This document shows positions 1 to 14,957 of a stretch of 64,000 nucleotides of DNA, one piece after another. This stretch comes from an uncultured Alphaproteobacteria bacterium. Its GTDB lineage: Bacteria > Pseudomonadota > Alphaproteobacteria > Sneathiellales > Sneathiellaceae. The notes beneath the pieces are model-generated. The model made no database searches. It was not told where the DNA came from and saw only the letters and a list, made by a program, of their open reading frames with translations. The stretch's first letter is position 1. Each line of letters opens with the position of its first letter. Location: contig CAJXWA010000002.1 of NCBI GenBank assembly GCA_913062525.1, forward strand, positions 1 to 64,000, read 5' to 3'. The translations under genes and the position numbers were made by a program.

Positions 1-797
1 GTATGAATGAGAGAGGAAACGGTGTTCAGGTATGGAATGCACCAGGTGCCATTATTGAAGAAAATAACATCAGTTTAGGTCGCGATGGTATTTTCGTAAC
101 AACCAGTAAAGAAAATGTTTTTAAAAACAATCGTATGGAAAACCTGCGATTTGCTATTCACTACATGTATACGGATAAAAGCAAGGTCATTGGCAATTAC
201 TCCCGTAACAATCACATGGGGTATGCCCTGATGTCATCTACGCATCTTGTCGTGGATGGCAATGTCTCTGAAGGTGATAAAAATCGCGGCATATTGTTTA
301 ATTATACCAACAAAGTAACGGTAACGGGGAATGTGGTCAAAGGGGGCACTGATAAGTGCGTCTTTATCTATAATTCTAATAGAAATCACTTTGAAGGCAA
401 TAGTTTTTCCGACTGCAACATAGGTATTCACTTTACGGCTGGTAGCGAACGTAATGTGATGACTAGAAACGCATTCATCAATAATCGAACTCAAGTTAAA
501 TACGTGGGAACGCGGTGGCTAGAATGGTCAACTATTGATGGGGGAAATTACTGGTCCGATCATAGTGCCTTTGATTTGAATAGTGATGGATTTGCAGATA
601 GCGTTTATCGCCCTAACGATTTAACCGACCGCGTCATGTGGCAGTTCCCATCCGCAAAATTACTCATCAATAGCCCCGCAGTTCAAATTCTTAAATATGC
701 GCAATCTGCATTTCCAGCAGTACACCCTGGTGGTGTGGTTGACAGCGCGCCCCTCATGGAAAACCCGACCATAACGGCCGTAGGACATGCGCAATGA
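1..797 (+). CDS. nosD: NosD, periplasmic beta-helix maturation factor for nitrous oxide reductase (5' end outside window)
   Basis: The protein consists of repeated beta-helix turns of the CASH/NosD type, with recurring N-x-F/I and GN-x-V/F steps such as VDGNVSEG and VTGNVVKGG, and ends with the NosD-like stretch NYWSDHSAFDLNSDG. NosD works in the periplasm with the NosFY ABC transporter to assemble the CuZ (copper-sulfur) centre of NosZ. Family members are about 400 to 450 residues; only about 264 are seen, so the signal peptide and first part lie left of the window. The first ATG in the track (base 3) is internal. The stop overlaps the nosF start by 4 bases (ATGA). Confidence 0.93.
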   Translation, partial: MNERGNGVQVWNAPGAIIEENNISLGRDGIFVTTSKENVFKNNRMENLRFAIHYMYTDKSKVIGNYSRNNHMGYALMSSTHLVVDGNVSEGDKNRGILFNYTNKVTVTGNVVKGGTDKCVFIYNSNRNHFEGNSFSDCNIGIHFTAGSERNVMTRNAFINNRTQVKYVGTRWLEWSTIDGGNYWSDHSAFDLNSDGFADSVYRPNDLTDRVMWQFPSAKLLINSPAVQILKYAQSAFPAVHPGGVVDSAPLMENPTITAVGHAQ

Positions 798-1738
798 AAA
801 TGACAAATTCACTCGCCATTAATCTTGTTGGTGTTGGTAAAAAATATAGATCCGTAATCGCTGTCGACAAAGTAGACCTTTCTCTTGCGAGTAGGGAATG
901 CATTGCACTAGTTGGTCACAATGGTGCTGGTAAAAGCACTTTGATCAAAATGATGCTTGGGCTCGTAAAACCAAGTTTCGGTGAATTATCAATCTTAAAT
1001 TGTGATCCGTTCGAACGGGATTTCGCTGATGTACGACGGGGTATCGGATTTTTACCCGAGCAGGTCCTTTTCCAAAAAAATATGACGGGGCTCGAAACTT
1101 TGATTTTTTATGCAAAGTTGAAAAAATTAAGGGATGTAATTTTTCCAGAATTGTTTGCACGAGTAGGGCTTGATAATGCCGCTGATCGCAAGGTTGGTAC
1201 ATACTCGAAAGGCATGCGCCAAAAACTTGGAATGGCGCAGGCGCTGATGGGGCAGCCTAAATTGCTGGTACTGGACGAACCCACGTCTGGGTTAGATCCT
1301 ATGGCCCGTCAAAATGTATATAAAATAATTGATGAAGAGAAAACACGCGGGGCAACAGTCCTCATCTCATCACATGCTCTAACAGAATTAGATGAGCGTA
1401 TTGACCGCGTTGTGATTTTGAAAGACGGAAAGGTGGTCGCTTCGGGCTCTATAGCTTTTCTTCGTAAAACCCTCGGAATGCACGCAAAAATTAAATTGTC
1501 TGCTGAATTGAAAGTTTGCGAACAAATTGAAAGATCTTTGGTAGGAAAATATCAACTTGAAAAACCAGTAGACGGAAAACTAGTTATATCAAGTCCGCTG
1601 GATATGAAAGCGGTCGTTTTGAGTCAAATTATGGCGCTTGGACTTGAAATCAGTGATGTTGAAATCAGTGAACCGACCCTTGAGAGTGTCTATAATTCTT
1701 ACTCAAGTTCAGTTGTCGGGAGGAATAGCGATGACTGA
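794..1738 (+). CDS. nosF: NosF, ATPase subunit of the NosDFY transporter
   Basis: This is the cytoplasmic ABC ATPase that with NosY powers delivery of a sulfur species for CuZ assembly. The Walker A motif GHNGAGKS (about residue 40), the signature YSKGMRQK (about 138) and Walker B LLVLDEPTSGLDP (about 156) followed by the H-loop SSHAL are intact. At 314 residues it is normal for NosF. ATG at 794 overlaps the nosD stop, and the 3' end overlaps nosY by 8 bases, so translation is probably coupled. Position between nosD and nosY separates it from generic ABC ATPases. Confidence 0.95.
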   Translation: MKMTNSLAINLVGVGKKYRSVIAVDKVDLSLASRECIALVGHNGAGKSTLIKMMLGLVKPSFGELSILNCDPFERDFADVRRGIGFLPEQVLFQKNMTGLETLIFYAKLKKLRDVIFPELFARVGLDNAADRKVGTYSKGMRQKLGMAQALMGQPKLLVLDEPTSGLDPMARQNVYKIIDEEKTRGATVLISSHALTELDERIDRVVILKDGKVVASGSIAFLRKTLGMHAKIKLSAELKVCEQIERSLVGKYQLEKPVDGKLVISSPLDMKAVVLSQIMALGLEISDVEISEPTLESVYNSYSSSVVGRNSDD

Positions 1739-2564
1739 TATATTAACATTGGCAGTGAAAGAATTTCGCGACGGTTATCGCAATCGTTGGATTGTGCTCA
1801 TGACGCTCGTCATGACGGGTCTGGCACTGGCGTTGGTACTGCTTGGAAGTGTGCCGGTCGGTGCCACCAAAATCAGCCCTCTTGCGGTGACGGTCGTCAG
1901 CCTATCATCTCTTAGTATATTTTTTATTCCTCTTATTGCCCTATTGCTTTCATATGACAGTATCGTTGGTGAGGACGAACGCGGCACACTTACATTGTTG
2001 TTGGTCTATCCAGTCTCTAGAACGGCCATAACCTTGGGTAAGTTTTTGGGGCAACTGCTTCTTCTTTCCTTTGTGATTATTGTGGGGTTTGGTATCGCTG
2101 TTTTGGCGATTGTCTTGATGGATGACATTCCGTTCTTTGAGCAAGAATGGAATGTTTTTTTGAAGCTACTCTTGTCCTCAATATTGTTAGGCGCAAATTT
2201 TCTCGCCATCGGAATTCTGCTCAGCTCTTGGATGAAAGAACGCGGGACGGCTGCCGCCAGCGCTATCGGTGTTTGGTTGTTGTTTGTTGTTCTGTTTGAT
2301 ATGGCCCTGATGGGTATATTATCCGCAAGTGATGGCGGCATGTTCAGCGATAATTTTATTAAATGGGTTATGCTCGCCAATCCAGCAGACGCATATCGGA
2401 TGTTCAATTTGACCTCCAGTGCGGATACAGCGCTTCTTTCGGGAATGGCGGGGCTTCGCGGGGATCAAGGCGTGCCGGCCCAAGTTTTACTTGCACTACT
2501 CGTTGCTTGGATCGCCGTCCCGCTTGCGGGAGCATGCCTCGTTTTTCAAAGGAGATCGCTATGA
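1731..2564 (+). CDS. nosY: NosY, membrane subunit of the NosDFY transporter
   Basis: This is an ABC-2 type permease of 277 residues with about six hydrophobic helices (for example WIVLMTLVMTGLALALVLLG and LIALLLSY), an EDERGTLTLLLVYPVSR loop typical of NosY-type permeases, and a final helix near the C-terminus. The track start at 1638 is too early. ATG at 1731, preceded by GGGAGGAATAGCG, is the better start and gives the 8-base overlap with nosF. It is the inner-membrane channel of the NosDFY complex. Confidence 0.93.
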   Translation: MTDILTLAVKEFRDGYRNRWIVLMTLVMTGLALALVLLGSVPVGATKISPLAVTVVSLSSLSIFFIPLIALLLSYDSIVGEDERGTLTLLLVYPVSRTAITLGKFLGQLLLLSFVIIVGFGIAVLAIVLMDDIPFFEQEWNVFLKLLLSSILLGANFLAIGILLSSWMKERGTAAASAIGVWLLFVVLFDMALMGILSASDGGMFSDNFIKWVMLANPADAYRMFNLTSSADTALLSGMAGLRGDQGVPAQVLLALLVAWIAVPLAGACLVFQRRSL

Positions 2565-3112
2565 TCGCAAAAAAAATGGCAACTCTCATATTTGTCAGCG
2601 CGTTTCTTTTGGGATGTAACACGGAGGTTGCGACCTTACCGTCACCGGAAAAGTTGACGGAACTTGCCATTGGAAACTACTGCGGAATGGTTCTAACTGA
2701 ACATGAAGGCCCCAAAGCACAGCTCTTTGAAAAAGGCAAGAATACTCCCCTTTGGTTTACAGCCGTAAGAGATGCTTTGGCCTATACCCGATTGCCGGGT
2801 GAGGGGCAAAGTGTTGTGGCTATATATGTCCATGATATGGGAAAAGCAAAAAGCTGGGAGAGACCAGACACTGACGGTATCTGGATCTTAGCCAGCGACG
2901 CCTATTATGTGATCAATAGCGAAAAACGCGGGGGCATGGGCATGACTGAGGTCGTTCCCTTTGGCGATCGGGAAAAGGCTATTCAGTTTATGAATGAATT
3001 TGGTGGAACGGTTGTGAGCTATCGAGATGTTCCAACTAAAAACCTATTCCCCGATTTTGACGAGCAAAACGTTGACGTTAGTGTCAGGTACACACAAGAG
3101 GCCGTTCAATGA
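2561..3112 (+). CDS. nosL: NosL, outer copper(I)-binding lipoprotein for NosZ maturation
   Basis: The protein is 183 residues from the ATG at 2561, which overlaps the nosY stop (ATGA) and has GGAG upstream; the track start at 2363 is too long. The N-terminus MIAKKMATLIFVSAFLLGCN is a lipoprotein signal with lipobox LLGC. The copper-binding CGMVL motif follows at about residue 44. NosL delivers Cu(I) to apo-NosZ in the periplasm. The stop overlaps the start of nosX. Confidence 0.93.
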   Translation: MIAKKMATLIFVSAFLLGCNTEVATLPSPEKLTELAIGNYCGMVLTEHEGPKAQLFEKGKNTPLWFTAVRDALAYTRLPGEGQSVVAIYVHDMGKAKSWERPDTDGIWILASDAYYVINSEKRGGMGMTEVVPFGDREKAIQFMNEFGGTVVSYRDVPTKNLFPDFDEQNVDVSVRYTQEAVQ

Positions 3113-4101
3113 GTAAAATAGAAGCTGCAAAACATCCAACGAGACGCCAGTTTATCGTCGCAGCGAGTGCGGTTGGTGCCTTATCCGTCGTGGGTTCACC
3201 TGTCATGGCGTCTGACGGTGCGCAATTGGTGACTTGGAAAGGGGCAGCACTTGGTGCTGAGGCTTCAATCCAGCTTTATCACCCTGACCCAAAATGGGCT
3301 CGGCGTCAGTTGGAGCGATGCTACAAAGAGATAAACCGATTAGAGAATTTATTTAGTCTGTACCGGCCAAATTCATCAATTTGTCTGTTGAACAAGAATG
3401 GGTCGCTGGAAAATCCGGATATAGATTTTATCCAACTGTTGTCCCGAGCAAAAGCGTTTACAGAAGTTAGCGGTGGTGCTTTTGATGTGACGGTTCAGCC
3501 TATGTGGAAATTGTACGCTGACCATTTTCAAGGTCCAAATGCTGACCCCAAAGGACCGGGAGCCGCGGTGATTAATAAAACCATCGATCTAATGGGGGCT
3601 GAAAATATTTATCTCGCATCTGATCGTGTGGGTTTCTTGAAAAAAGGAATGGGGATTACTCTCAATGGCATTGCACAAGGATATGTAACGGATAGAATTA
3701 CACAGATGTTGCGAGATGCAGGTTTCGACAATGTGTTGGTATCTTTAGGTGAGCAATTCGCATTGGGCACCAAACCAGAGCAACAGAATTGGCGCGTCGG
3801 AATTATCTCTCCAGCGGATGGCGTTTCAATCACGAAAACTGTCGATTTAAAGAACGCAGCTATTGCAACATCAGGTGGGTATGGGAGTCCGTTCGCTCCA
3901 GATTCAAATCTGAACCATCTGATCGATCCGCGAACTGGTAAAACTGCTAAATTAAGAAAATCTGTATCAGTAATTGCGAATAATGCGGTAAAGGCAGATA
4001 TGGTTTCAACAGCCTTATCACTAATGACTGAAAGTAAGGGGCGCGAATTGGTGGCAAATGATCCTTCAATTTTAGAAATGATCTATTCCAATGTTTTATA
4101 A
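3109..4101 (+). CDS. nosX: NosX, Tat-exported ApbE-like FMN transferase
   Basis: At 330 residues this is an ApbE-fold flavin transferase with an N-terminal twin-arginine signal (RRQFIVAASAVG). Family marks are LFSLYRPNSSI near residue 82, GITLNGIAQGYVTDR near 183, IATSGGYG near 250 and HLIDPRTGKT near 268. NosX covalently attaches FMN to NosR, the membrane electron donor for NosZ. It is the last gene of the overlapping nos cluster, and nosR/nosZ are expected left of the window. It converges with ftsH across about 100 bases without a convincing terminator. Confidence 0.92.
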   Translation: MSKIEAAKHPTRRQFIVAASAVGALSVVGSPVMASDGAQLVTWKGAALGAEASIQLYHPDPKWARRQLERCYKEINRLENLFSLYRPNSSICLLNKNGSLENPDIDFIQLLSRAKAFTEVSGGAFDVTVQPMWKLYADHFQGPNADPKGPGAAVINKTIDLMGAENIYLASDRVGFLKKGMGITLNGIAQGYVTDRITQMLRDAGFDNVLVSLGEQFALGTKPEQQNWRVGIISPADGVSITKTVDLKNAAIATSGGYGSPFAPDSNLNHLIDPRTGKTAKLRKSVSVIANNAVKADMVSTALSLMTESKGRELVANDPSILEMIYSNVL

Positions 4102-4204
4102 GACTGAAAAACAAACGTTCAGCTTCAAACTTTGCAAGGATTAGCCCACAGGGGCAGGCGTGCAAAAGGCGATGGTATAAAGTGTTGCTGAGTTCTCCAT
4201 TTAC

Positions 4205-6028
4205 TTAACTTAGAATTTCAGTGATCTGGTCGTGGCTCACCGTTTCTTCTTTTTCCAACATTTTGAACAATACCTCTATTTTGGATTTATGATCTGTAAT
4301 GGTGTTTACAGCCGACTGTTCAGCGTCTTTCAATAATTTGGAGACAGCTTCATCAACCTTATTTGAGATGGCTTCACTAAACCTTTTGGGTTGTGCAATT
4401 TCTCTTCCTAGAAAAGGATGTTCCTCGCTCTGACTTAGATCAATGGGCCCAATGTCTTTAGACATTCCCCAGCGGGAAACCATTGAGCGTGCCAGTTGAG
4501 TTGCCCGTTTGATGTCGTCATCAGCTCCAGAACTGACATTTCCCATAAAAATTTGCTCCCCAACTCTGCCCGCAAGAATTATTGCAAGCTGATCAAGCAG
4601 GTAGTTTTCATCAAGGGTATGTCGCTCTTCCCCGGGCAACATGTGAGTGGCTCCAAGAGCACGGCCACGGGGAATTATTGTCACTTTGTAGAGAGGATCA
4701 GCGTTAGGTGAATAAAAGGCGACAGCAGTATGGCCAGCTTCATGCACCGCAAGCCGCTTGTGCTCTTCGGGTTGTATGGCAAGGGTGCGGACAGTCCCCA
4801 TGATAATCTTGTCTCGCATAGTGTCAAAATGTTCCGTAGTCACTTCGTCCACACCGTTCCTTGCCGCTGCGATAGCGGCTTCATTGACAAGGTTTTTGAG
4901 ATCGGCGCCTGAGAAGCCTGGGCAACTAGCAGCCACTGTTGCAAGGTTAACTTCTTTGGCTAAGGGTACTTTGCGAACATGTACCTTCAAAATTTGTTCA
5001 CGGGCTGTTTTATCAGGTAAGTCGAGAGTTACATGTCGATCAAATCGGCCCGGGCGAAGCAAAGCTGGATCGAGAACGTCGGGGCGATTGGTTGCCGCGA
5101 GAACAATTACGGCTTCATGACCTGAGAAGCCATCCATTTCTGACAAAATCTGATTGAGTGTTTGCTCTCGTTCGTCATTCCCGCCGCCAAAGCCGGTTCC
5201 TCTTGCTCGGCCAACGGCATCCAACTCATCAATAAAAATTATGCTGGGGGCTCGTTTTTTTGCCTCCTCAAACATTTTTCGCACGCGGGACGCGCCAACA
5301 CCAACGAACATTTCAATGAATTCGGAAGCAGATATATGAAAAAAGTTGACGCCAGCTTCACCAGCCAATGCTCTGGCGAGGAGCGTTTTTCCGGTTCCAG
5401 GAGCCCCCATTAGCAAAACGCCTCTTGGAGGTTCAGCACCAACATTCTCATAGGTTTGCGGATGTTTCAGGAAATCGACAAGTTCGGCAACCTCTCGTTT
5501 AGCGCCTTCTTGTCCGGCCACATCGTCAAAAGTCACCTTTCGTTCAGTTTTCTCTTCTTGGGCCGAAGATCCAACTAAAAAATCCTGAGAGTTACGTCCG
5601 CCAAAACGATCCATAACATTACCCTGCATCCGTCGCAGGAAGAAAATATAAACGCCAAACAGAACAAACCACGGCACTATACTTTTAAGCCAGCCAATTC
5701 CATCATCCAAAGGGCGGTTCCATATGATGATATTATTTTTCTCGAGAAGTTTTATAAGATCGGGGTCGCCACTAGCCGGCGTGATTGTTGACACTCTTTC
5801 AAAATCAGTTGTAGTTGCTCCAAACTTCTTGGGTGAACTTAAGAGTGCGCTTGCTTTGTCCCCGTCAAGAGTGACTTCTTTTATATCACCGTTCAACACA
5901 GTTTGCTTAAATTCACTATATGAAATTTTAGCTTCTTTTGGTTGTTGCACCAATTGAGTGGACAATAACATTGCCGCAAACATAAACCCAATAATGGCAA
6001 ACCAAACCCAATATGGAATTTGTTTCAA
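4205..6028 (-). CDS. ftsH: FtsH-type AAA membrane zinc protease
   Basis: FtsH degrades unassembled membrane proteins and selected regulators. Visible parts are TM1 ([16 protein letters not shown]), a periplasmic domain, TM2 ([14 protein letters not shown]), Walker A GAPGTGKT, Walker [12 protein letters not shown], second region of homology [20 protein letters not shown], and the zinc site HEAGH. The track start (TTG at 6082) adds 18 residues. A TTG at 6028 preceded by GGAGGATAA is a much better initiation site and puts TM1 at the N-terminus as usual (607 residues). Standing beside stress genes, it is probably a second copy rather than the housekeeping FtsH. Confidence 0.94.
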
Positions 6029-6243
6029 ATTATCCTCCAAAAACAATGACTTTAGGGGCCCTCTTCGAATCGAGGAATTCAATTAAAGAAGCTAAATGAA
6101 CGACGATCTTCAAAGTAACGCCGATACTTTTCTACTGAAAATTAAGCAGTTTCTTTTTTACCCGCGGTGAAGAAGAAGAACATTGATATGAAACAATTTT
6201 TAAGATTGTGACTTCATGGGTAGACCCGTCGAGTTTAGAGCAA

Positions 6244-7500
6244 TCAAATAAAGAAGCCAGCCATAAGAAGACCCAAACTGGTAAGGCAGCCAAGTATGGG
6301 GACCCAAAGAGGTACGTAAAAGACTTCCCCTACGGTCTCTGCGCCGTCTAATAGTTTTATTCTGATCAGTGCTAGATTTACCAAAGTGAATACCAATAAC
6401 ACGACTATTGAAGTCATTTCAGCGAGTTCAACAATGGGTAGCGTATAGGCCAGAATGACAATAAGGCCGATGATGATCAGACTCGCAGTTATTGGTGTCC
6501 GGGTCCGGGGGGAAATATAGGTGATAAAGCTCGGTAACGATCCTTGTTTGCCCAGGCCATATAAAACACGAGAAGCCATAATGACTTGAATAAGGGCACC
6601 GTTAATGGTGGCAAAAAAGGCTATTAGACCAAAAAGACCCTTAATCCAGGGCGGGGCAGATGCAAACACCAGAGAAAGAGGCGTGGTAGAGCTCAAGAGT
6701 TCTGCCATAGGAACCATAAGAATAACAACAGAAACCACAATGAGATAGACGGTTGTCGCTAAGATAAGGGTGAGTAGGATACCCCATGGGAGCGTCTTTT
6801 TAGGCTGTTTTACTTCTTCCGCTATATTTGCAATATCCTCGAACCCAACAAAAGCGAAAAAGGCCAATAATCCAGCGGAAAAAATTCCTGACCAAGCCAC
6901 TACTTCAAATGGCGGTATCAGTAAATGTGCATTGTTAAGTAAATCTGGAGTGACGAAGAAAGCATATCCAACAACTAACCCTAGTCCGCCAATTTCAATC
7001 AATGTTATTAAGGCTGCGAAACGTACGGACTCCAGAATACCCCAGATAGCAATCAAGCCCACTATTACGATAACAATGGCAAGCAAAAGGTCTTCAGATA
7101 TCGGTATATATGCATGAAGATATGCAGCAGAACCCAAGGTAACTGCGGCAGAAGAGACTACTCCAGACACAACAACCATGAGGCCCACTAAAAGTGAAAA
7201 AGAAGGAGAACGGAAACCTTCTTTGACATAGGCGGCTTCGCCGGCACTTACGGGAAATCGAGTTGATAGCTCCGCGTAACTAAAGCCGGTGAATGAGACA
7301 ACAATTGCAGCGACTACAAATGAAATTGGTGCGTAGTATCCCGCTTTTTCTGCGGTTCCTCCAATTAGCACATAGATCCCTGCACCAACGGTTACACCCA
7401 GACCGTACAAAACTAAAAGGGGTAATGAAAGACTACGTGCAAGTGTGGGCTCCGAACCTGTTTCCGAAGATTTGGAGTTCCTTATTGTTTTTACCATCAC
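6244..7500 (-). CDS. APC-family amino acid permease
   Basis: The 418-residue protein has about 12 hydrophobic segments. The first helix carries the APC motif LYGLGVTVGAGIYVLIGG, and the conserved loop GFSYAELSTRFPVSAGEAAYV and the FAFVGFEDIANIAEEVKQPKKTLP segment mark the amino acid-polyamine-organocation superfamily. Substrate cannot be told. Start is GTG at 7500 or ATG at 7497, both within reach of AAGGA. It lies 25 bases downstream of the antiporter gene and upstream of ftsH on the same strand. The three probably share a transcript, though the 160 bases before ftsH could hold another promoter. Confidence 0.9.
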   Translation of the reverse strand: MMVKTIRNSKSSETGSEPTLARSLSLPLLVLYGLGVTVGAGIYVLIGGTAEKAGYYAPISFVVAAIVVSFTGFSYAELSTRFPVSAGEAAYVKEGFRSPSFSLLVGLMVVVSGVVSSAAVTLGSAAYLHAYIPISEDLLLAIVIVIVGLIAIWGILESVRFAALITLIEIGGLGLVVGYAFFVTPDLLNNAHLLIPPFEVVAWSGIFSAGLLAFFAFVGFEDIANIAEEVKQPKKTLPWGILLTLILATTVYLIVVSVVILMVPMAELLSSTTPLSLVFASAPPWIKGLFGLIAFFATINGALIQVIMASRVLYGLGKQGSLPSFITYISPRTRTPITASLIIIGLIVILAYTLPIVELAEMTSIVVLLVFTLVNLALIRIKLLDGAETVGEVFYVPLWVPILGCLTSLGLLMAGFFI

Positions 7501-7525
7501 GAGTGTGTCCTTCAGTCAGAAGTCT

Positions 7526-8764
7526 TTATCTAATTTCGGCAGGTCCGCGAGAAATAATCAATCTTAGAAATAAGGGGGCGACAACGGTGGTTACGATGCT
7601 GACCAATATTAATGTGGATAGGAGCGAAGTTCCAATTTGATCTTGCTCCGTTTCTCCTGCAAAAACGCCGGCTTCATAGGCGATATCTAAAATGACAAGC
7701 TCAACGACGCCCCGTGCACTCATCGCTATGCCGATGACAGAGGCGCTTCGATTATCAAACCCCAAAACTCGAGCCATTCCCCCGGCACCAACAATTTTAC
7801 TGACAATTGCAAACAACGCTAGCGATACAAGCAAGCCAGGCACTACAAATAGGGCCTCGAAATCAACATATAGCCCAATAGAGAGGAAAAATATGGGAGC
7901 TAGAACGGCTGAAACTGCCGTTGAAACGGTTGCTTTCAATTGCACATAACTGCGGATGCCCACTTGCGATTTTTCAAAGAATAGTCCGGCCATGAAAACG
8001 CCGATAATCCAGTGTAGTGATAGTGTTTCAGCAAGCCACCCATAAGCTAGAGCGGCCATTATCAAAACACTAAATTCCATAGCTGCGGCTTCTAGAGTTT
8101 TCAGTCCATGGCGAACCCGGGGGTATATGTGCACGCCGATGACTATTGTTAAGAGAAAGAATCCCACAATTTTACCAAACAGATAAAGAAACTCACTTAG
8201 GGCAGGCAGCTCTCCAGTTTCGACAATCGCGAGCAACAGCGCGAGTAGAAAAAGGGTGATAATGTCGTCAAACAGCGCCGCAGCGACTATGACTTCCCCT
8301 GCTGCGGTTTGCAGTATTTTTAATTCGGCTAAGATTTTGATAACGACAGGGAGGGCGGTAATCGACAAGACGACCCCTGTTAGTAGAGCCTGAATATCTC
8401 TTTGACTAGATCCCTCAAGCATATACCAACTGAGAATAATGCCGCCGATCAGCGGGACAACAACACCGCCGCAGGCGACGACCAAAGCTTTGCCAGAAGA
8501 TTCCATCAGCTTTCTCGGTTGCATTTCGATGCCAGCATTCAGAACAATGAAAAAAACCGCGATGCTTGCTCCAATGTGTATCAAGTCATTGGCAATGATC
8601 TCGTGTAGGAACGGCTGACTATCACCATAGGTCGCTGCGAGCCAAACCAGTAAAATACCAGCACCAATTTCACCAACGGATGGCGGTAACTTTATGGCTT
8701 GGGCGGCACTTCCAAAACCGCGAGCCAAAACGAGGCAAATCAATAGAATTAGGAGAGGGCTCAC
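7526..8764 (-). CDS. CPA2-type cation:proton antiporter
   Basis: This 412-residue integral membrane protein has about 12 helices and belongs to the Na+/H+ or K+/H+ exchanger family (CPA2, KefB/NapA-like), shown by PSVGEIGAGILLVWL, LTGVVLSITALPVVIKIL and the DDIITLFLLALLLA helix with paired acidic residues. No C-terminal TrkA-N domain is present, so it lacks nucleotide gating. Start is GTG preceded by AAGGAAAACGC. It would exchange protons for Na+ or K+ at the inner membrane, and is the first gene of the minus-strand arm of the island. Confidence 0.88.
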   Translation of the reverse strand: MSPLLILLICLVLARGFGSAAQAIKLPPSVGEIGAGILLVWLAATYGDSQPFLHEIIANDLIHIGASIAVFFIVLNAGIEMQPRKLMESSGKALVVACGGVVVPLIGGIILSWYMLEGSSQRDIQALLTGVVLSITALPVVIKILAELKILQTAAGEVIVAAALFDDIITLFLLALLLAIVETGELPALSEFLYLFGKIVGFFLLTIVIGVHIYPRVRHGLKTLEAAAMEFSVLIMAALAYGWLAETLSLHWIIGVFMAGLFFEKSQVGIRSYVQLKATVSTAVSAVLAPIFFLSIGLYVDFEALFVVPGLLVSLALFAIVSKIVGAGGMARVLGFDNRSASVIGIAMSARGVVELVILDIAYEAGVFAGETEQDQIGTSLLSTLILVSIVTTVVAPLFLRLIISRGPAEIR

Positions 8765-8925
8765 GCGTTTTCCTTATTGTTTCTAATGTGAGTTTGAGTT
8801 TACAGTGGACACACGAACTGATCCTTGATTTGACGCACACCGATCACAATTTTCTTTTGAGCAAGATCAAAGCGGTAGATAACTTATTGAAACATAGTGG
8901 AAGTCTAATTTAGACGGGAAAATTC
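8765..8925. promoter_or_regulatory. Divergent promoter region of the stress island
   Basis: This 161-base gap separates the antiporter (minus) from the nucleotide phosphorylase (plus). It contains the FNR-type box at 8857-8870 and a weak minus-10-like CATAGT at 8893-8898 that fits a plus-strand start near 8905. No clear sigma-70 promoter is seen for the minus arm. Regulation of the minus arm by the same box is possible but not shown. Confidence 0.55.
8857..8870. promoter_or_regulatory. FNR/DNR-type binding site
   Basis: TTGAGCAAGATCAA matches the FNR/Anr/Dnr consensus TTGAT-N4-ATCAA with one mismatch. Its centre is about 62 bases upstream of the phosphorylase start codon. If the transcription start lies 41.5 bases from the centre, as in class II activation, the leader would be about 20 bases long, with CATAGT in the minus-10 position. 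An almost identical box precedes the Usp gene. Confidence 0.68.
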
Positions 8926-10410
8926 ATGTTGCGGTTGAAGAGCGTCAAAATAGACACTTATCCCGATAACGTTGCCTTTCTTGCTCGGCATTGCGAAGCC
9001 TGCCGTCCTGAAGAATTCTTAGCTCTTAGAAAAATTGACGTTATCGCCGGAGATAAAAGAATACAAGCCTCTCTTTTAATCGTAGACGATGAGAATATGG
9101 TGGGGTTGAAAGAACTTGGTTTGTCTGAGCAAGCTTTTCGTCGCTTAGGTTTGGCCGAAGGAGCCAAGGTTTCTATAGCTCCTTCTCGACAACCCCGAAG
9201 TTTAGAGCATTTGCGAAGCAAGATACATGGTGCTGCTCTCAATCGAGAGCAGATTACGATGATTATCAACGATATTGTAAATCATAGGTATTCTGAGAAA
9301 GAGATCGCAGCTTTTCTCGTGTCTTCAGCAGGTTTTATGACAACAGATGAAATGTTGGCGCTTACCGAAGCGATGGCAAACGTTGGGCATCGATTGACTT
9401 GGGGGGAGCCTAACATTGTCGACAAACATTGTGTAGGGGGCGTGCCTGGTAACCGTACATCGATGATTGTTGTCCCTATTGTCGCGGCTCACGGTCTAAT
9501 TATTCCAAAAACATCATCAAGGGCCATCACATCTTCTGCCGGAACAGCAGATACTATGGAAGTTTTGTCTCGTGTCGATTTGACAGTCGAGGAGATGCAA
9601 GATGTTGTGAAGAGGTGCAACGGTTGTATTGTTTGGGGCGGGCATGTAGGGCTCTCTCCGGTTGACGATATTCTTATATCGGTAGAGCGACCGCTTTCCA
9701 TCAATACACGAGAGCAGATGGTCGCCTCGATCATGTCAAAGAAGATGTCTGCGGGATCTACCCATTTACTAATTGATATTCCTGTTGGTCGGTACGCGAA
9801 GGTTAGCAGCCTTGATAGCGCCATGCGCCTGCGCAAACTGTTCGAATTTGTAGGTGATAAAGTGGGCGTGCATGTGGAGGTTACAGTCACTGATGGGTCT
9901 CAACCCATTGGGCAGGGCATTGGTCCCGTGCTGGAAGCAAGAGATGTTATGGCGGTGTTAGCGTGTCAGCCAAATGCACCGTTGGATTTGCGTGAGAAAT
10001 CTCTACAGATAGCAGGTGCGCTTTTGGAAACTGATCCCGATTTACGAGGCGGGAGTGGTTACGATAGGGCAAAAGAGCTCCTTGATTCAGGAGACGCATT
10101 ATCGTCGATGGAACGTATAATTAAATATCAGGGTAAGGTTGATACCCCCTATACCTTGGGGACTTTGACGAAAGATGTTTTGGCCCCTCGTCGAGGGACC
10201 GTTAGCGCCATAGATTGTTTCCGCATTAGCCGACTTGCACGACTTGCCGGAGCACCGTTTGAAAAAGGTGCAGGAATTGATTTATTCAAAAAAATTGGCG
10301 ACACAGTTGCGTCGGGAGAACCTCTCTACCGAATATATGCCAACTTTCAATCGGATTACGCCTTTGCTAGTGAGTTTGCAGCAAAAGACAACGGTTATCA
10401 CCTGGAGTGA
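8926..10410 (+). CDS. Archaeal-type thymidine/AMP phosphorylase family protein
   Basis: The 494-residue enzyme of the nucleoside phosphorylase-II family has the extra N-terminal domain of about 85 residues found in archaeal AMP phosphorylase (DeoA-like), followed by the helical domain, the phosphate loop [14 protein letters not shown] (about 166) and [20 protein letters not shown] (about 195). Bacterial DeoA has KHSTGGVGD here, so the archaeal NMP-phosphorylase subgroup is favoured. That reaction turns AMP plus phosphate into adenine plus ribose 1,5-bisphosphate. No R15P isomerase or RuBisCO is nearby, so the downstream fate is open. It heads the plus arm behind an FNR-type box. Confidence 0.85.
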
Positions 10411-10490
10411 AATCGTCTCCGATAAGGGGGCTTCCAATTGTGTTTTACTGACTCCGCTTCGTATTAAGCCGCTGAGAGAGGAAATTTGGA

Positions 10491-12101
10491 ATGACAATTA
10501 AAATTAAATTTTGTGGTGCCGCTGGAACTGTTACAGGTTCATGTTATTGGGTGCGGACGGAAAGTTGTCAGTTTTTGATCGATTGTGGATTGTTTCAAGG
10601 AACTAAAACCCTGAAGGCATTGAATTATGATCAGTTTCCATTTTTGCCCTCTGAGATAGATTTTGTACTGCTCACACATGCGCACACCGATCATAGCGCT
10701 ATGGTTCCAAAACTTATTAACGCAGGTTTTAGGGGGCCGGTATACGCCATACATGCGACTAAAGAGCTGCTGAATTACATGTTGCCAGATAGTGGGTACA
10801 TTCAAGAAATAGAAGTTTCCAGGCTCAATCAACGCAACCAACGGCGCGGAAAACCTCAAGTCAAACCTATTTATACACAAAAAGAGGCTGAATTAGCTCT
10901 CAGTCAAATTCAGGGTGTTGATTATGGCGTATGGATTGAGCTAGGTCGAAATGTAGAGGCTCGTTTTTGGAATGCTGGCCATATTCTAGGCTCAGCCTCT
11001 ATTGAGATGAAAATCCAAGATAATGGCAAGATGCGCAAATTGCTTTTCTCAGGCGACATCGGCCCCGACCACAAACTTTTCCATGAAGATCCTGACGCTC
11101 CGTCGGGATTTGATTTTGTCATTTGTGAATCGACCTATGGGGGACGTAATCGACAAGATGTATCTATTCCTGAGCGGCGGAAAATACTGGCAAATGAGAT
11201 TAATCAGGCTATGGCTGCGGGCGGTGCTCTTGTAATTCCATCTTTTGCTGTTGAACGAACGCAGGAGCTGCTTCTCGACATTTCTTGGTTGTTACAAAAT
11301 GAAAAAATACCAGGATCCTTGGTGTTTTTGGACTCCCCTCTAGCTATAAGAATAACGGCTGTATTCGCTAAGTTTGCAGAGGCCCTGCAGAATGTCGGTA
11401 AACATACGCCACCCTTCAAGCATAGCAGCTTCCGTTTTACGGAATCCGTCGACGAGAGCAAATCAATTGCGGGCTACACTGAGGGCGTTATCATTTTAGC
11501 GGCCAGTGGAATGTGCGATGCGGGCCGTATTAGGCATCATTTGAAAAATCATCTTTGGCGGCCCAAATCGACAATTTTGTTGGTGGGATATCAGGCTGAG
11601 GGAACTTTGGGTAGTTTGCTTGAAAAGGGTCTGAAAAGTGTGAAAATCATGGGAGAAGCTATTCAGGTTAGGGCCAGAATCCGAAAAATTGATATTTATT
11701 CAGGGCATGCTGACGGAGCGGGATTAATCCAATGGATAGATGCGCGTTCACCCATTGAGAGTGGCTTGTTTTTGACACACGGAAATAAGGAGGCTCTTTA
11801 TTCTTTGAAATCTGACATCTTAAATTCTGGGTTTGATGAAAACAAACTCTTGATCCCGATGCTGGATGACGATTACGAACTGACAAGCTCGGGCAAGGTT
11901 AGTCGGATAACAGATGTTTCCAAAAGGCTTAACGTTGAGCAACTCGATAAACCTGATTGGCATAACGAGTTAGCTCAATTGACATTAGATGTTCGGGCAG
12001 TTCTCGAGCAGGCAAACGGAGATGATCATCGCAAAGACATTTTGGCGCAACTCAGGAAGTCATTATTAAAAGAGGGAAAGGGGCAAGGACATGCCAGATG
12101 A
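10491..12101 (+). CDS. Beta-CASP metallo-beta-lactamase-fold RNA hydrolase-like protein
   Basis: The 536-residue protein joins a metallo-beta-lactamase core (HAHTDHS near 64, GHILGSA near 165, FSGDIG near 186) to a beta-CASP domain (IPSFAVERTQELLLDI, ILAASGMCDAGRIRHHL) and ends with YSGHADG and LTHGNK motifs. This is the CPSF/YSH1-like class whose members act as RNA endo- or exonucleases. Its length matches the family, and the metal ligands appear complete. ATG at 10491 follows GAGAGGAAATTTGGA. The 3' end overlaps the FNT gene by 11 bases, which implies coupled translation. Confidence 0.88.
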   Translation: MTIKIKFCGAAGTVTGSCYWVRTESCQFLIDCGLFQGTKTLKALNYDQFPFLPSEIDFVLLTHAHTDHSAMVPKLINAGFRGPVYAIHATKELLNYMLPDSGYIQEIEVSRLNQRNQRRGKPQVKPIYTQKEAELALSQIQGVDYGVWIELGRNVEARFWNAGHILGSASIEMKIQDNGKMRKLLFSGDIGPDHKLFHEDPDAPSGFDFVICESTYGGRNRQDVSIPERRKILANEINQAMAAGGALVIPSFAVERTQELLLDISWLLQNEKIPGSLVFLDSPLAIRITAVFAKFAEALQNVGKHTPPFKHSSFRFTESVDESKSIAGYTEGVIILAASGMCDAGRIRHHLKNHLWRPKSTILLVGYQAEGTLGSLLEKGLKSVKIMGEAIQVRARIRKIDIYSGHADGAGLIQWIDARSPIESGLFLTHGNKEALYSLKSDILNSGFDENKLLIPMLDDDYELTSSGKVSRITDVSKRLNVEQLDKPDWHNELAQLTLDVRAVLEQANGDDHRKDILAQLRKSLLKEGKGQGHAR

Positions 12102-12900
12102 CAACAAGGCTCCTAGTTCTTTAACGCTGGACGCATTTTCACCGCAAGAAATAGCACAGCGAGTTGAAAATGCAGCCATATCCAAGGCAAATATTGGTTT
12201 TGCATCAACCCTTATATTGGCCATTTTGGCGGGAGCATTCATCGCTTTTGGTGGAGCATTTTATACCCTTGTAATAACCGGGAGCGGCTTAGGATTTGGC
12301 CCGACAAGAATGTTGGGGGGGCTCGCCTTTTCCACTGGGCTTGTATTGGTCGTCGTCGGAGGCGCTGAGCTGTTCACTGGAAATAATTTAATTGTTATGG
12401 CGTGGGCAGACCGCAAAATTACACACCTGCAGCTCTTTAGAAACTGGAGCATTGTCTACATAGGGAATTTGTTAGGATCGTTAGGTATTGCGTTGCTAGT
12501 TGCAATGTCGGGCATTCTGGCACTGGATGGTGGAAACGTAGCTTTGACTGCTATTGGAATAGCTGAGGCAAAGTTAAATTTACCCATGGATGAGGCTTTT
12601 GTTCGGGGTATTTTATGTAATACTTTGGTTTGCTTGGCAATTTGGTTGTGTTTTTCGGCTCGATCAGTGGTTAGTAAAATTCTAGCAATTGTTTTCCCAA
12701 TTACAGCGTTTGTGGCCCTAGGGTTCGAGCATTCTATCGCCAATATGTATTTGATCCCCATCGCCTATTTTGCCGGATCTGAAGCGGTCACTTTCAGTGG
12801 GTTTGTAACCAACATTATTCTTGTCACTGCGGGAAACATAATCGGTGGAAGTGGTTTCGTTGCCATAACCTATTGGATGGTTTACCTCCGTAAAAGCTAG
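12091..12900 (+). CDS. Formate/nitrite transporter (FNT) family channel
   Basis: This 269-residue FocA/NirC-like protein has six membrane segments after a soluble N-terminus. Family marks are GGAELFTGNNLIVMAW (about 95), the IGNLLGSLG segment and the selectivity-filter region LGFEHSIANMYLIPIAY, which matches FocA closely. It would carry formate, nitrite or a similar small monovalent anion across the inner membrane, in keeping with anaerobic respiration. ATG at 12091 lies inside the upstream gene, preceded by AAAGGGGCAAGG. Confidence 0.92.
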   Translation: MPDDNKAPSSLTLDAFSPQEIAQRVENAAISKANIGFASTLILAILAGAFIAFGGAFYTLVITGSGLGFGPTRMLGGLAFSTGLVLVVVGGAELFTGNNLIVMAWADRKITHLQLFRNWSIVYIGNLLGSLGIALLVAMSGILALDGGNVALTAIGIAEAKLNLPMDEAFVRGILCNTLVCLAIWLCFSARSVVSKILAIVFPITAFVALGFEHSIANMYLIPIAYFAGSEAVTFSGFVTNIILVTAGNIIGGSGFVAITYWMVYLRKS

Positions 12901-12914
12901 TTCTTTTCGTGGTA

Positions 12915-12928
12915 TTGAGTTGCATCAA
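12915..12928. promoter_or_regulatory. FNR/DNR-type binding site before usp
   Basis: TTGAGTTGCATCAA fits TTGAT-N4-ATCAA with the same single change (TTGAG) as the box at 8857. It lies in the 92-base gap before the universal stress gene, with its centre about 71 bases upstream of that ATG. This suggests the stress protein has its own oxygen-controlled promoter besides read-through from the FNT gene. Confidence 0.66.
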
Positions 12929-12992
12929 TGCGCTCCTAAAGCAATCGGTTGACTGTAGAAGTCGAAGGCAATCTTTAAAGCAGGAGTAGGAA

Positions 12993-13808
12993 ATGTCCAT
13001 CAAATCTATACTCGTCCATGTGGATCAGAACAACTCAGATAATGCTCTGCAGGCTGCAGCATTGTTGGCTGACAAATTTAGTGCTCATGTTAATGGTGTC
13101 GGTGTGGAAAACAGAGTCAATGTTCCCACATATGTCACCGCGGAATTACCGCGCGAACTTCTCCAATCCTTTGCAAAACAACAAGAGGAGAGACTGGAGG
13201 CGTCGCAGAAAGCTTTCGAGAGAAAAATGAAAGACATCGGTAAAATAGCCACGGCATCTTGGGAAAGTGGGATCGAAGAAGTCATTCCGTTTATTGGCCG
13301 CAGATCCCGTGTAAACGACCTCACGATTATCACTCAAGATAATCCGAACTCAACCGGCAGGAACATTGTAGACGATGTCGTTGTTTCGGCAGCGGGCGCC
13401 GTTTTGGTAGTGCCGCATCTTGCAATAGGAGAGACAATCGGTGAGGCAGTTACAGTGGCTTGGAACGATAGTCCAGAGTCCGCAAGAGCTGTGCGCGCAG
13501 CGCTTCCAATTTTGAAGAAAGCTAAATCTGTCGATGTAATCATTATTTCAAAATCAGAGGAAGACCAGTTTAAAGGATCTGACGTGGCTCGGTATCTATC
13601 TGAACATGGCATTGAGATCTCTTTGAAAATTGTTGCTAATAGCGCCATTGATGTCGCGAATGTGATCCTAAATAATGTGTTTGAAAAGGGACATGACTTA
13701 ATCGTAATGGGAGCCTTTAGTCATATGCGACTGCGTGAAGCCATTTTAGGTGGCACCACACGGAACATATTTGCTCATATGACTGTTCCTGTTATTTTTT
13801 CTCATTAA
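12993..13808 (+). CDS. Tandem-domain universal stress protein (UspA family)
   Basis: The 271-residue protein contains two Usp domains. The first starts MSIKSILVHVDQ. The second starts near residue 150 with VTVAWNDSPESARAVRAALP and ends with the nucleotide-binding G-x2-G-x9-G-S/T-like region (MGAFSHMRLREAILGGTTR). Usp proteins are cytoplasmic and support survival under energy or oxygen limitation. ATG at 12993 follows CAGGAGTAGGA. A conserved FNR-like box lies upstream. It ends the plus arm of the island. Confidence 0.92.
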   Translation: MSIKSILVHVDQNNSDNALQAAALLADKFSAHVNGVGVENRVNVPTYVTAELPRELLQSFAKQQEERLEASQKAFERKMKDIGKIATASWESGIEEVIPFIGRRSRVNDLTIITQDNPNSTGRNIVDDVVVSAAGAVLVVPHLAIGETIGEAVTVAWNDSPESARAVRAALPILKKAKSVDVIIISKSEEDQFKGSDVARYLSEHGIEISLKIVANSAIDVANVILNNVFEKGHDLIVMGAFSHMRLREAILGGTTRNIFAHMTVPVIFSH

Positions 13809-13922
13809 TTACAGATATAATATCGGCTACTGTTTCCTCTTAAGGTCATCTTAGGTGTTTTGGGTGTTGAACTCAGTTCGGCCAATGACCAGAAACGATC
13901 ACTGCCGACAGTTGCTTGTAAC

Positions 13923-14957
13923 TTAAGACCGTTTTTTGAACCTTTGAGTGGATAGAGCTGCAATTACGTCTGCAGGTAAGCAACGGGGACGATCCATGAT
14001 CATATCTGCGAGCAAATGAGCGCCCATCAATGAGCTAAGAATACCGTAAGAGCCATGGGCGGCGGAAATATAGACGTTGTCCCATTCCGGTGCCAGACCA
14101 ATGATGGGAAAGCGGTTTCTAGAGGTTGCCCGGACAGATGCACGCTGTGTTAGGACTTCTAAGCCGACCTCTAGGCCGGGAATTGCTTCAGCCAATTTTT
14201 GAATATTGTCCTGATCATCCTGTTTGATAATATTCGAATGATCTACGCTGGGCTGGAACGTGGCGCCCAGAGTGTGAACTCCATTTTGTGCAGGCATTAG
14301 ATATCCTTCATAACAAATACCGCATTTAAGATTTGCTGATTTCTGTGTGGATTTCACCTGAGTGATTTGTCCGCGGACCGGGATAATCGGAAGGCTGGGC
14401 ACGAATTCGAGAACTGCCGGGCCGCACGCCAAGACAATGACATCAGCGTCGATGCCTTCAAGGTTTTCAATAGGGGTATTAAGGTAGTGTTCGATATTCT
14501 GCATGTATGCTGCGCAGAGTTTCCTTGGCGCGATACTGCCCCCATCCGGCAAATACAGGGCGCCGTATTCAATATCAACACCAGCAATTTTTGTGGCCTC
14601 TTCGGAGGAGACAAGGTGCATGTGATCTGACGCCCAGTCCCAGTTTGTCACGGTTCGTTTCAAACGTTTTTCTTTTTTCTCCGTATCCATTACATGTAGC
14701 ACACCGGTTGGGCACCAATCGATATCATCGAATGTCTTAAAGCTACGGAGTGCTAAAGCATAGGCGGCTGAATAAAAATCAGCATCCGGCCCGCGCAATG
14801 CAGAAAAACGTGGGTTATATAGTCCAGAAAAATTCCCAGAGGCACCGTTCGCAAGTTCAGAACCAGCTTCATAGACAACAGGTTCTTGGCCCAGTTGGTG
14901 GAGTACCCAAGCCAGTGCGCATCCAGCTAAACCACCGCCGATAATCGCAATTTTCAC
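13923..14957 (-). CDS. mnmC: FAD-dependent cmnm5U oxidoreductase (MnmC C-terminal activity as a separate protein)
   Basis: The 344-residue DAAO-fold flavoprotein opens with the dinucleotide-binding motif IIGGGLAGCALAWVL and carries the MnmC signature NGASGNFSGLYNPRF, which distinguishes it from other FAD amine oxidases. It removes the carboxymethyl group from cmnm5(s2)U34 in tRNA. In E. coli this is the C-terminal half of MnmC. Here it starts at GTG (14957), which overlaps the stop of the methyltransferase gene by 4 bases (GTGA), so the two halves are separate but coupled. Confidence 0.87.
   Translation of the reverse strand: MKIAIIGGGLAGCALAWVLHQLGQEPVVYEAGSELANGASGNFSGLYNPRFSALRGPDADFYSAAYALALRSFKTFDDIDWCPTGVLHVMDTEKKEKRLKRTVTNWDWASDHMHLVSSEEATKIAGVDIEYGALYLPDGGSIAPRKLCAAYMQNIEHYLNTPIENLEGIDADVIVLACGPAVLEFVPSLPIIPVRGQITQVKSTQKSANLKCGICYEGYLMPAQNGVHTLGATFQPSVDHSNIIKQDDQDNIQKLAEAIPGLEVGLEVLTQRASVRATSRNRFPIIGLAPEWDNVYISAAHGSYGILSSLMGAHLLADMIMDRPRCLPADVIAALSTQRFKKRS

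Follow-up and report, generated by a model that had tools for sequence, protein, structure and literature searches.

A putative low-oxygen island of stress and nucleotide-recycling genes in a Sneathiella genome, with a conserved FNR/FixK box before its phosphorylase operon

Described low-oxygen systems and the layout of the island

The closest described counterpart of the locus analyzed here is the operon bll3117-bll3116-bll3115 of Bradyrhizobium diazoefficiens, for which decreases of 6.6-fold (bll3117) and 30.6-fold (bll3115) were reported in a fixK2 deletion at 0.5% oxygen, and whose motif is ATGATCTGGGTCAA (PMC9104804). The bll3117, bll3116 and bll3115 proteins all rise in microoxia (PMC6515984). 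That this Bradyrhizobium homologue of our operon core responds to low oxygen is, in other words, already known. The FixK2 regulon of the same species also includes usp, Hsp20 and DnaJ genes (PMC9104804, PMC6515984). The regulators FNR, FixK and DNR have one DNA motif in common in Alphaproteobacteria (PMC2908626), and a study on Sphingopyxis granuli places the FNR box of uspA with its center at -41.5 (PMC7713065). The low-oxygen-activated lxa locus of the Burkholderia cepacia complex encodes Usp proteins and involves CRP/FNR-type regulators (PMC4981469, PMC3759415).

The locus described here lies in a window of 64,000 nucleotides, that is, the whole stretch of DNA analyzed, from a 3.5 Mb draft genome estimated to be 85% complete. 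It is like the FixK2 operon in the family of its phosphorylase, in the order of its phosphorylase and metallo-beta-lactamase (MBL)/beta-CASP genes and in the FNR/FixK box before the first gene. It differs in having an FNT channel gene and a usp gene and no PRPP synthase-like middle gene, in the shorter distance from the box to the start codon, and in a local regulator that looks like a [4Fe-4S] FNR rather than FixK2. With the alphaproteobacterial core FNR regulon and the Sphingopyxis Fnr regulon it shares a usp gene (uspA in these regulons) with an FNR box of the TTGA-N6-TCAA type, whereas phosphorylase, beta-CASP, FNT and ftsH genes were not found in the available parts of the two sources (PMC2908626, PMC7713065). 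The lxa locus is comparable in its annotated contents, which include an MBL protein (BCAM0300), an FtsH-like protease (BCAM0309) and Usp, but it spans about 50 genes and belongs to another bacterial class.

Domain assignments with Pfam and NCBIfam bore out the first-pass annotation in its reading of the genes across the island. On the minus strand, ftsH2 (4205..6082) encodes an FtsH-type membrane metalloprotease (AAA + peptidase M41), an identification also supported by a paralogue and orthologues, and it is accompanied by genes for an APC-family amino-acid permease (6244..7500) and a CPA2-family cation/proton antiporter (7526..8764). On the plus strand, a thymidine/AMP phosphorylase family enzyme (TIGR02645/PRK04350; 8926..10410), assigned by NCBIfam and structural relatives, is followed by a metallo-beta-lactamase/beta-CASP ribonuclease-type protein of the TTHA0252/CPSF73 superfamily (10491..12101), a FocA-like channel of the formate/nitrite transporter (FNT) family (12091..12900) and a universal stress protein of 271 amino acids (usp; 12993..13808). 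Because the end of the beta-CASP gene overlaps the FNT gene, phosphorylase, beta-CASP and FNT probably form one operon.

Only 92 bp separate FNT from usp, with no terminator-like site predicted between them, and an Rfam scan of positions 4000-14200 gave no match. The antiporter and phosphorylase genes diverge from a gap of 161 bp (8765-8925). The initial mention of two main intergenic gaps in the island leaves one out: the permease-ftsH gap (6083-6243) is also 161 bp long and bears a third near-box. The nos genes (nosD-F-Y-L and apbE) occupy positions 3-4101; they do lie just upstream on the map, as first described, but are oriented convergently with ftsH. The contig starts within nosD (1-800), and the nosRZ part and the nos promoter fall off the contig.

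The phosphorylase promoter and its probable regulator

The FNR/FixK box TTGAGCAAGATCAA was found at 8857..8870 on the plus strand, 69 bp ahead of the start codon (ATG) of the phosphorylase gene, and a second one, TTGAGTTGCATCAA, at 12915..12928 on the same strand, 78 bp before the usp ATG. Letters and coordinates of both boxes agree exactly with the initial description: each departs from TTGAT-N4-ATCAA at a single position, the fifth, where both have G. The 64-kb window has five exact TTGA-N6-TCAA motifs where 2.3 +/- 1.6 would be expected, and a count of five was reached in 9 of 100 shuffled sequences; since this is near chance, the count alone is no evidence. Judged from the sequences, the significance of the boxes rests on their position and conservation. 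Genome-wide box counts were obtained by pattern searches, for which the reverse-pattern control differs in dinucleotide make-up and did not serve as a significance test.

Conservation was assessed among the 14 nearest relatives, those with phosphorylases at least 66% identical, among them Sneathiella, Kordiimonas and Emcibacteraceae. An exact TTGA-N6-TCAA stands at -69 to -77 before the phosphorylase gene in 10 of them and a one-mismatch box in two more, the box being missing in the remaining two (S. chinensis and G014). When 13 promoters were aligned on the box, the fixed half-sites showed 96% pairwise identity, as against 28% for the sequence upstream of the box, 30% for the 22 bases that follow it and 25% past the -10 position, so that the flanks of these promoters are as unlike each other as random DNA. 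The earlier expectation that the box would be kept in related genomes thus holds for the phosphorylase promoter, which carries what is, at the sequence level, a clear phylogenetic footprint. It could still be argued that the likeness to FNR boxes is accidental and the island constitutive or governed by another stress regulator, and two exact boxes per 64 kb are indeed not rare by count. A footprint that crosses genera amid random flanks, together with the reported reliance of the homologous operon on FixK2 (PMC9104804, PMC6515984), makes this highly improbable.

The spacing of the promoter elements points in the same direction. In a test restricted to the boxed sequences of the phosphorylase set, the match to TATAAT peaks at a spacer of 22 (3.31 of 6 against 1.61 +/- 0.30 in shuffled sequences, with 0 of 20,000 as high), and in an independent set, the genus usp promoters, the -10 match is highest at spacer 22 too. 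A -10 peak 22 bases after the box is what is expected for a box centered at -41.5. In the window, the predicted -10 hexamer CATAGT (4/6) lies at 8893..8898 on the plus strand, 22 bp after the box. The phosphorylase promoter therefore combines the features of a class II FNR/FixK promoter, namely the TTGA-N6-TCAA dyad, the spacer of 22 and a cognate FNR in the genome, and its class II spacing is shared by the relatives in which the box is kept.

The FNR homologue of the host (L001) adjoins hemN and has a C-x2-C-x7-C motif, a central cysteine and the helix ETVSR, which supplies the DNA-reading residues of the E-x-x-S-R pattern. The presence of an FNR/DNR homologue, on which the anaerobic reading of the island depends, is thereby confirmed, with all the iron-sulphur ligands in place. 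The four cysteines and the ETVSR helix are kept in all 22 genus homologues read, and 24 of 25 genus genomes have an FNR homologue, the one without it being a draft of 56% completeness. FixK2 and FNR are the best relatives of the host protein in the PDB.

Another member of the CRP/FNR family, of the Dnr/NnrR or FixK type, might instead be the main reader of the boxes, in which case the signal would be nitric oxide or nitrate respiration. Such a reader would suit the nearby nos genes, the motif common to FNR, FixK and DNR (PMC2908626), and the extra Crp/Fnr homologues of other genus members; a second FNR/Dnr/FixK-type regulator may also have been missed, because the genome is 85% complete. The draft, however, yields only one FNR-like protein and one that is CRP-like (helix RETVAR), and every genus genome in which a usp box was read also has an FNR homologue, which leaves this reading improbable. 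We infer that in the Sneathiella host the [4Fe-4S] FNR, of the FnrL/FnrN type, would bind the 8857 box, some 41.5 bp ahead of the transcription start of the phosphorylase - beta-CASP - FNT unit, and would give class II activation, and hence anaerobic induction, at low oxygen. For this operon, the oxygen response first proposed is probably correct.

More distant loci differ in the placement of the box. In most Rhodopseudomonas phosphorylase loci an exact box stands between -142 and -160, and in the Bradyrhizobium loci ATGATCTGGGTCAA, identical to the published site, lies at about -98. In loci of the Parvibaculum group (L045-L058 and L062), the 2.5 kb preceding the phosphorylase gene contain no exact FNR box, so control of the phosphorylase unit appears to differ there. 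These loci retain the phosphorylase and mostly also the beta-CASP gene.

Candidate control of usp, ftsH2 and the transporters

The case for the window usp is weaker, because the hexamer that stands at its class II -10 position downstream of the exact box is GACTGT, a poor match (2/6). The window usp is at most 37% identical to its relatives (36% to genus usp genes) and has no true orthologue, for which reason usp promoters in general were compared. Each of the 18 genus usp homologues read has a box, mostly TTGTCTSAAATCAA, between -75 and -83. The second usp of the host genome (contig C133; L188:6020-6033) has TTGAGTAGAATCAA at -80 and TATATT at spacer 22; this box shares the off-consensus G of the window boxes. 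In B. diazoefficiens, TTGAG boxes are found before blr4240 (TTGAGGTGCATCAA) and hspC2 (TTGAGCAAAATCAA), which change -25-fold and -111-fold, respectively, in the fixK2 deletion (PMC9104804). The former is one base from the window usp box and the latter one base from the window phosphorylase box. Since TTGAG boxes sit at such strongly FixK2-dependent genes, the shared off-consensus G is no bar to function.

The third FNR-like box, TTGTTTCATATCAA, at 6196-6183 on the minus strand before ftsH2, was absent from the first-pass annotation. It has one mismatch in the eight fixed bases, with TAAAAA (4/6) 22 bp downstream, and both its class II box and its -10 element are thus in place. It resembles in type the boxes before genus usp genes, and the motif TTGTYTSANATCAA, derived from those usp promoters, has just two occurrences in the 3.5 Mb draft, one of them before ftsH2. 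The ftsH2 gene is 49% identical to the housekeeping ftsH found elsewhere in the genome and occurs in 11 of the 25 genus genomes, that of the window included (66-74% identical). Five of these 11 genes have a box within 220 bp, which is TTGAGTTAAATCAA in two cases.

The possibility has to be weighed that function is confined to the phosphorylase box, the near-boxes of usp and ftsH having arisen by chance and usp being read from the upstream operon. The poor -10 of the window usp, the short FNT-usp gap with no predicted terminator-like site and the near-chance box counts of the window would all agree with it. On the other hand, other usp and ftsH2 genes of the genus have FNR boxes at similar positions, the ftsH box fits a rare motif that was defined independently on usp promoters, and boxes of the TTGAG type occur at FixK2-dependent Bradyrhizobium genes, so that we regard a solitary functional box as rather unlikely, although the most serious of the alternatives.

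FNR control of the window usp, and of ftsH2 through the third box, is plausible on these promoter comparisons. The 12915 box would then act as an internal FNR site adding usp, and the box at 6196-6183 would put ftsH2 under FNR control. Taken as a whole, we consider it quite likely that the 8857 box is the [4Fe-4S] FNR operator of the phosphorylase operon and that the two other boxes add usp and ftsH2.

The box in the divergent gap had also been suggested to serve ftsH and the transporters. As an antiporter/permease promoter, the 8857 box would have GTCAAA (2/6) as its minus-strand hexamer at spacer 22, which gives the suggestion no supporting -10, and no FNR promoter was identified for the minus-strand transporter genes. 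For ftsH, control is plausible through its own box instead. The idea of an oxygen-switched island is consequently probably right for the phosphorylase operon, with its conserved box, its FNR and its FixK2-dependent homologue; it is plausible for usp and ftsH and lacks support for the transporters.

Possible metabolic role and comparable islands

In terms of gene content, the island is accessory and composite in Sneathiella, as far as the sequenced genomes tell. A close phosphorylase (67-71% identical) is found in only seven of 24 other genus members, no FNT relative occurs in the three other genus genomes within the class sample, and no second copy of the whole island was found around FNT and antiporter genes in other Alphaproteobacteria. 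What emerges is very probably a stress and nucleotide-recycling island that is turned on as oxygen is exhausted. It extends the alphaproteobacterial FNR/FixK low-oxygen regulon by an operon with a clear footprint, in which the phosphorylase - beta-CASP pair stays oxygen-controlled across several genera while its neighbors change. Oxygen control that is kept despite changing neighbors points to a role of this pair in anoxic survival, a role that can be tested in the tractable Bradyrhizobium (bll3117-bll3115).

As to what the pair might do, the beta-CASP protein is similar to the RNase TTHA0252, and the phosphorylase to the archaeal enzyme 4ga5/4ga6, an AMP phosphorylase. Together they could, as a guess from these resemblances, free ribose phosphate from RNA without ATP. 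The likely purpose would be anoxic survival, in which nucleotides or nucleosides from RNA would be cleaved by phosphorolysis to give ribose phosphates at no cost of ATP, FNT would export an acid anion and FtsH2 and Usp would provide protein quality control. We found no paper that establishes the role of the pair. Most relatives have a PRPP synthase-like gene between phosphorylase and beta-CASP, where the window has a gap of 80 bp (10411-10490); elsewhere the host draft has only a PRPP synthase homologue of 30% identity, and no phosphoketolase was found in this 85% complete draft. The metabolic purpose is uncertain for these two reasons, the lack of a phosphoketolase in the draft and of the PRPP synthase-like gene in the island. 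A broader and doubtful proposal is that Alphaproteobacteria burn their own RNA for ribose phosphate in anoxia through an FNR/FixK-switched unit of beta-CASP ribonuclease and AMP/nucleoside phosphorylase, and that in the Sneathiella lineage FNT replaced the PRPP synthase-like step and expels the resulting acid.

Comparable groupings were seen in other genomes. In a Rhodospirillales MAG (L034), the phosphorylase gene and ftsH point away from each other, and usp comes next. In G303 (L239), a box precedes the FNT gene by 80 bp and an ftsH is close by, automatic ORF calls being unreliable in such GC-rich loci. An Emcibacteraceae locus (L037) groups ftsH, an alternative ATPase operon, phosphorylase-PRPP synthase-beta-CASP and further genes. 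Because L037, L034 and lxa group them likewise, stress functions under low-oxygen control appear to be a recurrent arrangement. L037 (600-20040) is a dense FNR island, with seven perfect TTGAT-N4-ATCAA boxes in 21.5 kb against 0.04 expected, and the box in the divergent gap between its alternative ATPase and phosphorylase genes has -10 hexamers on both sides.
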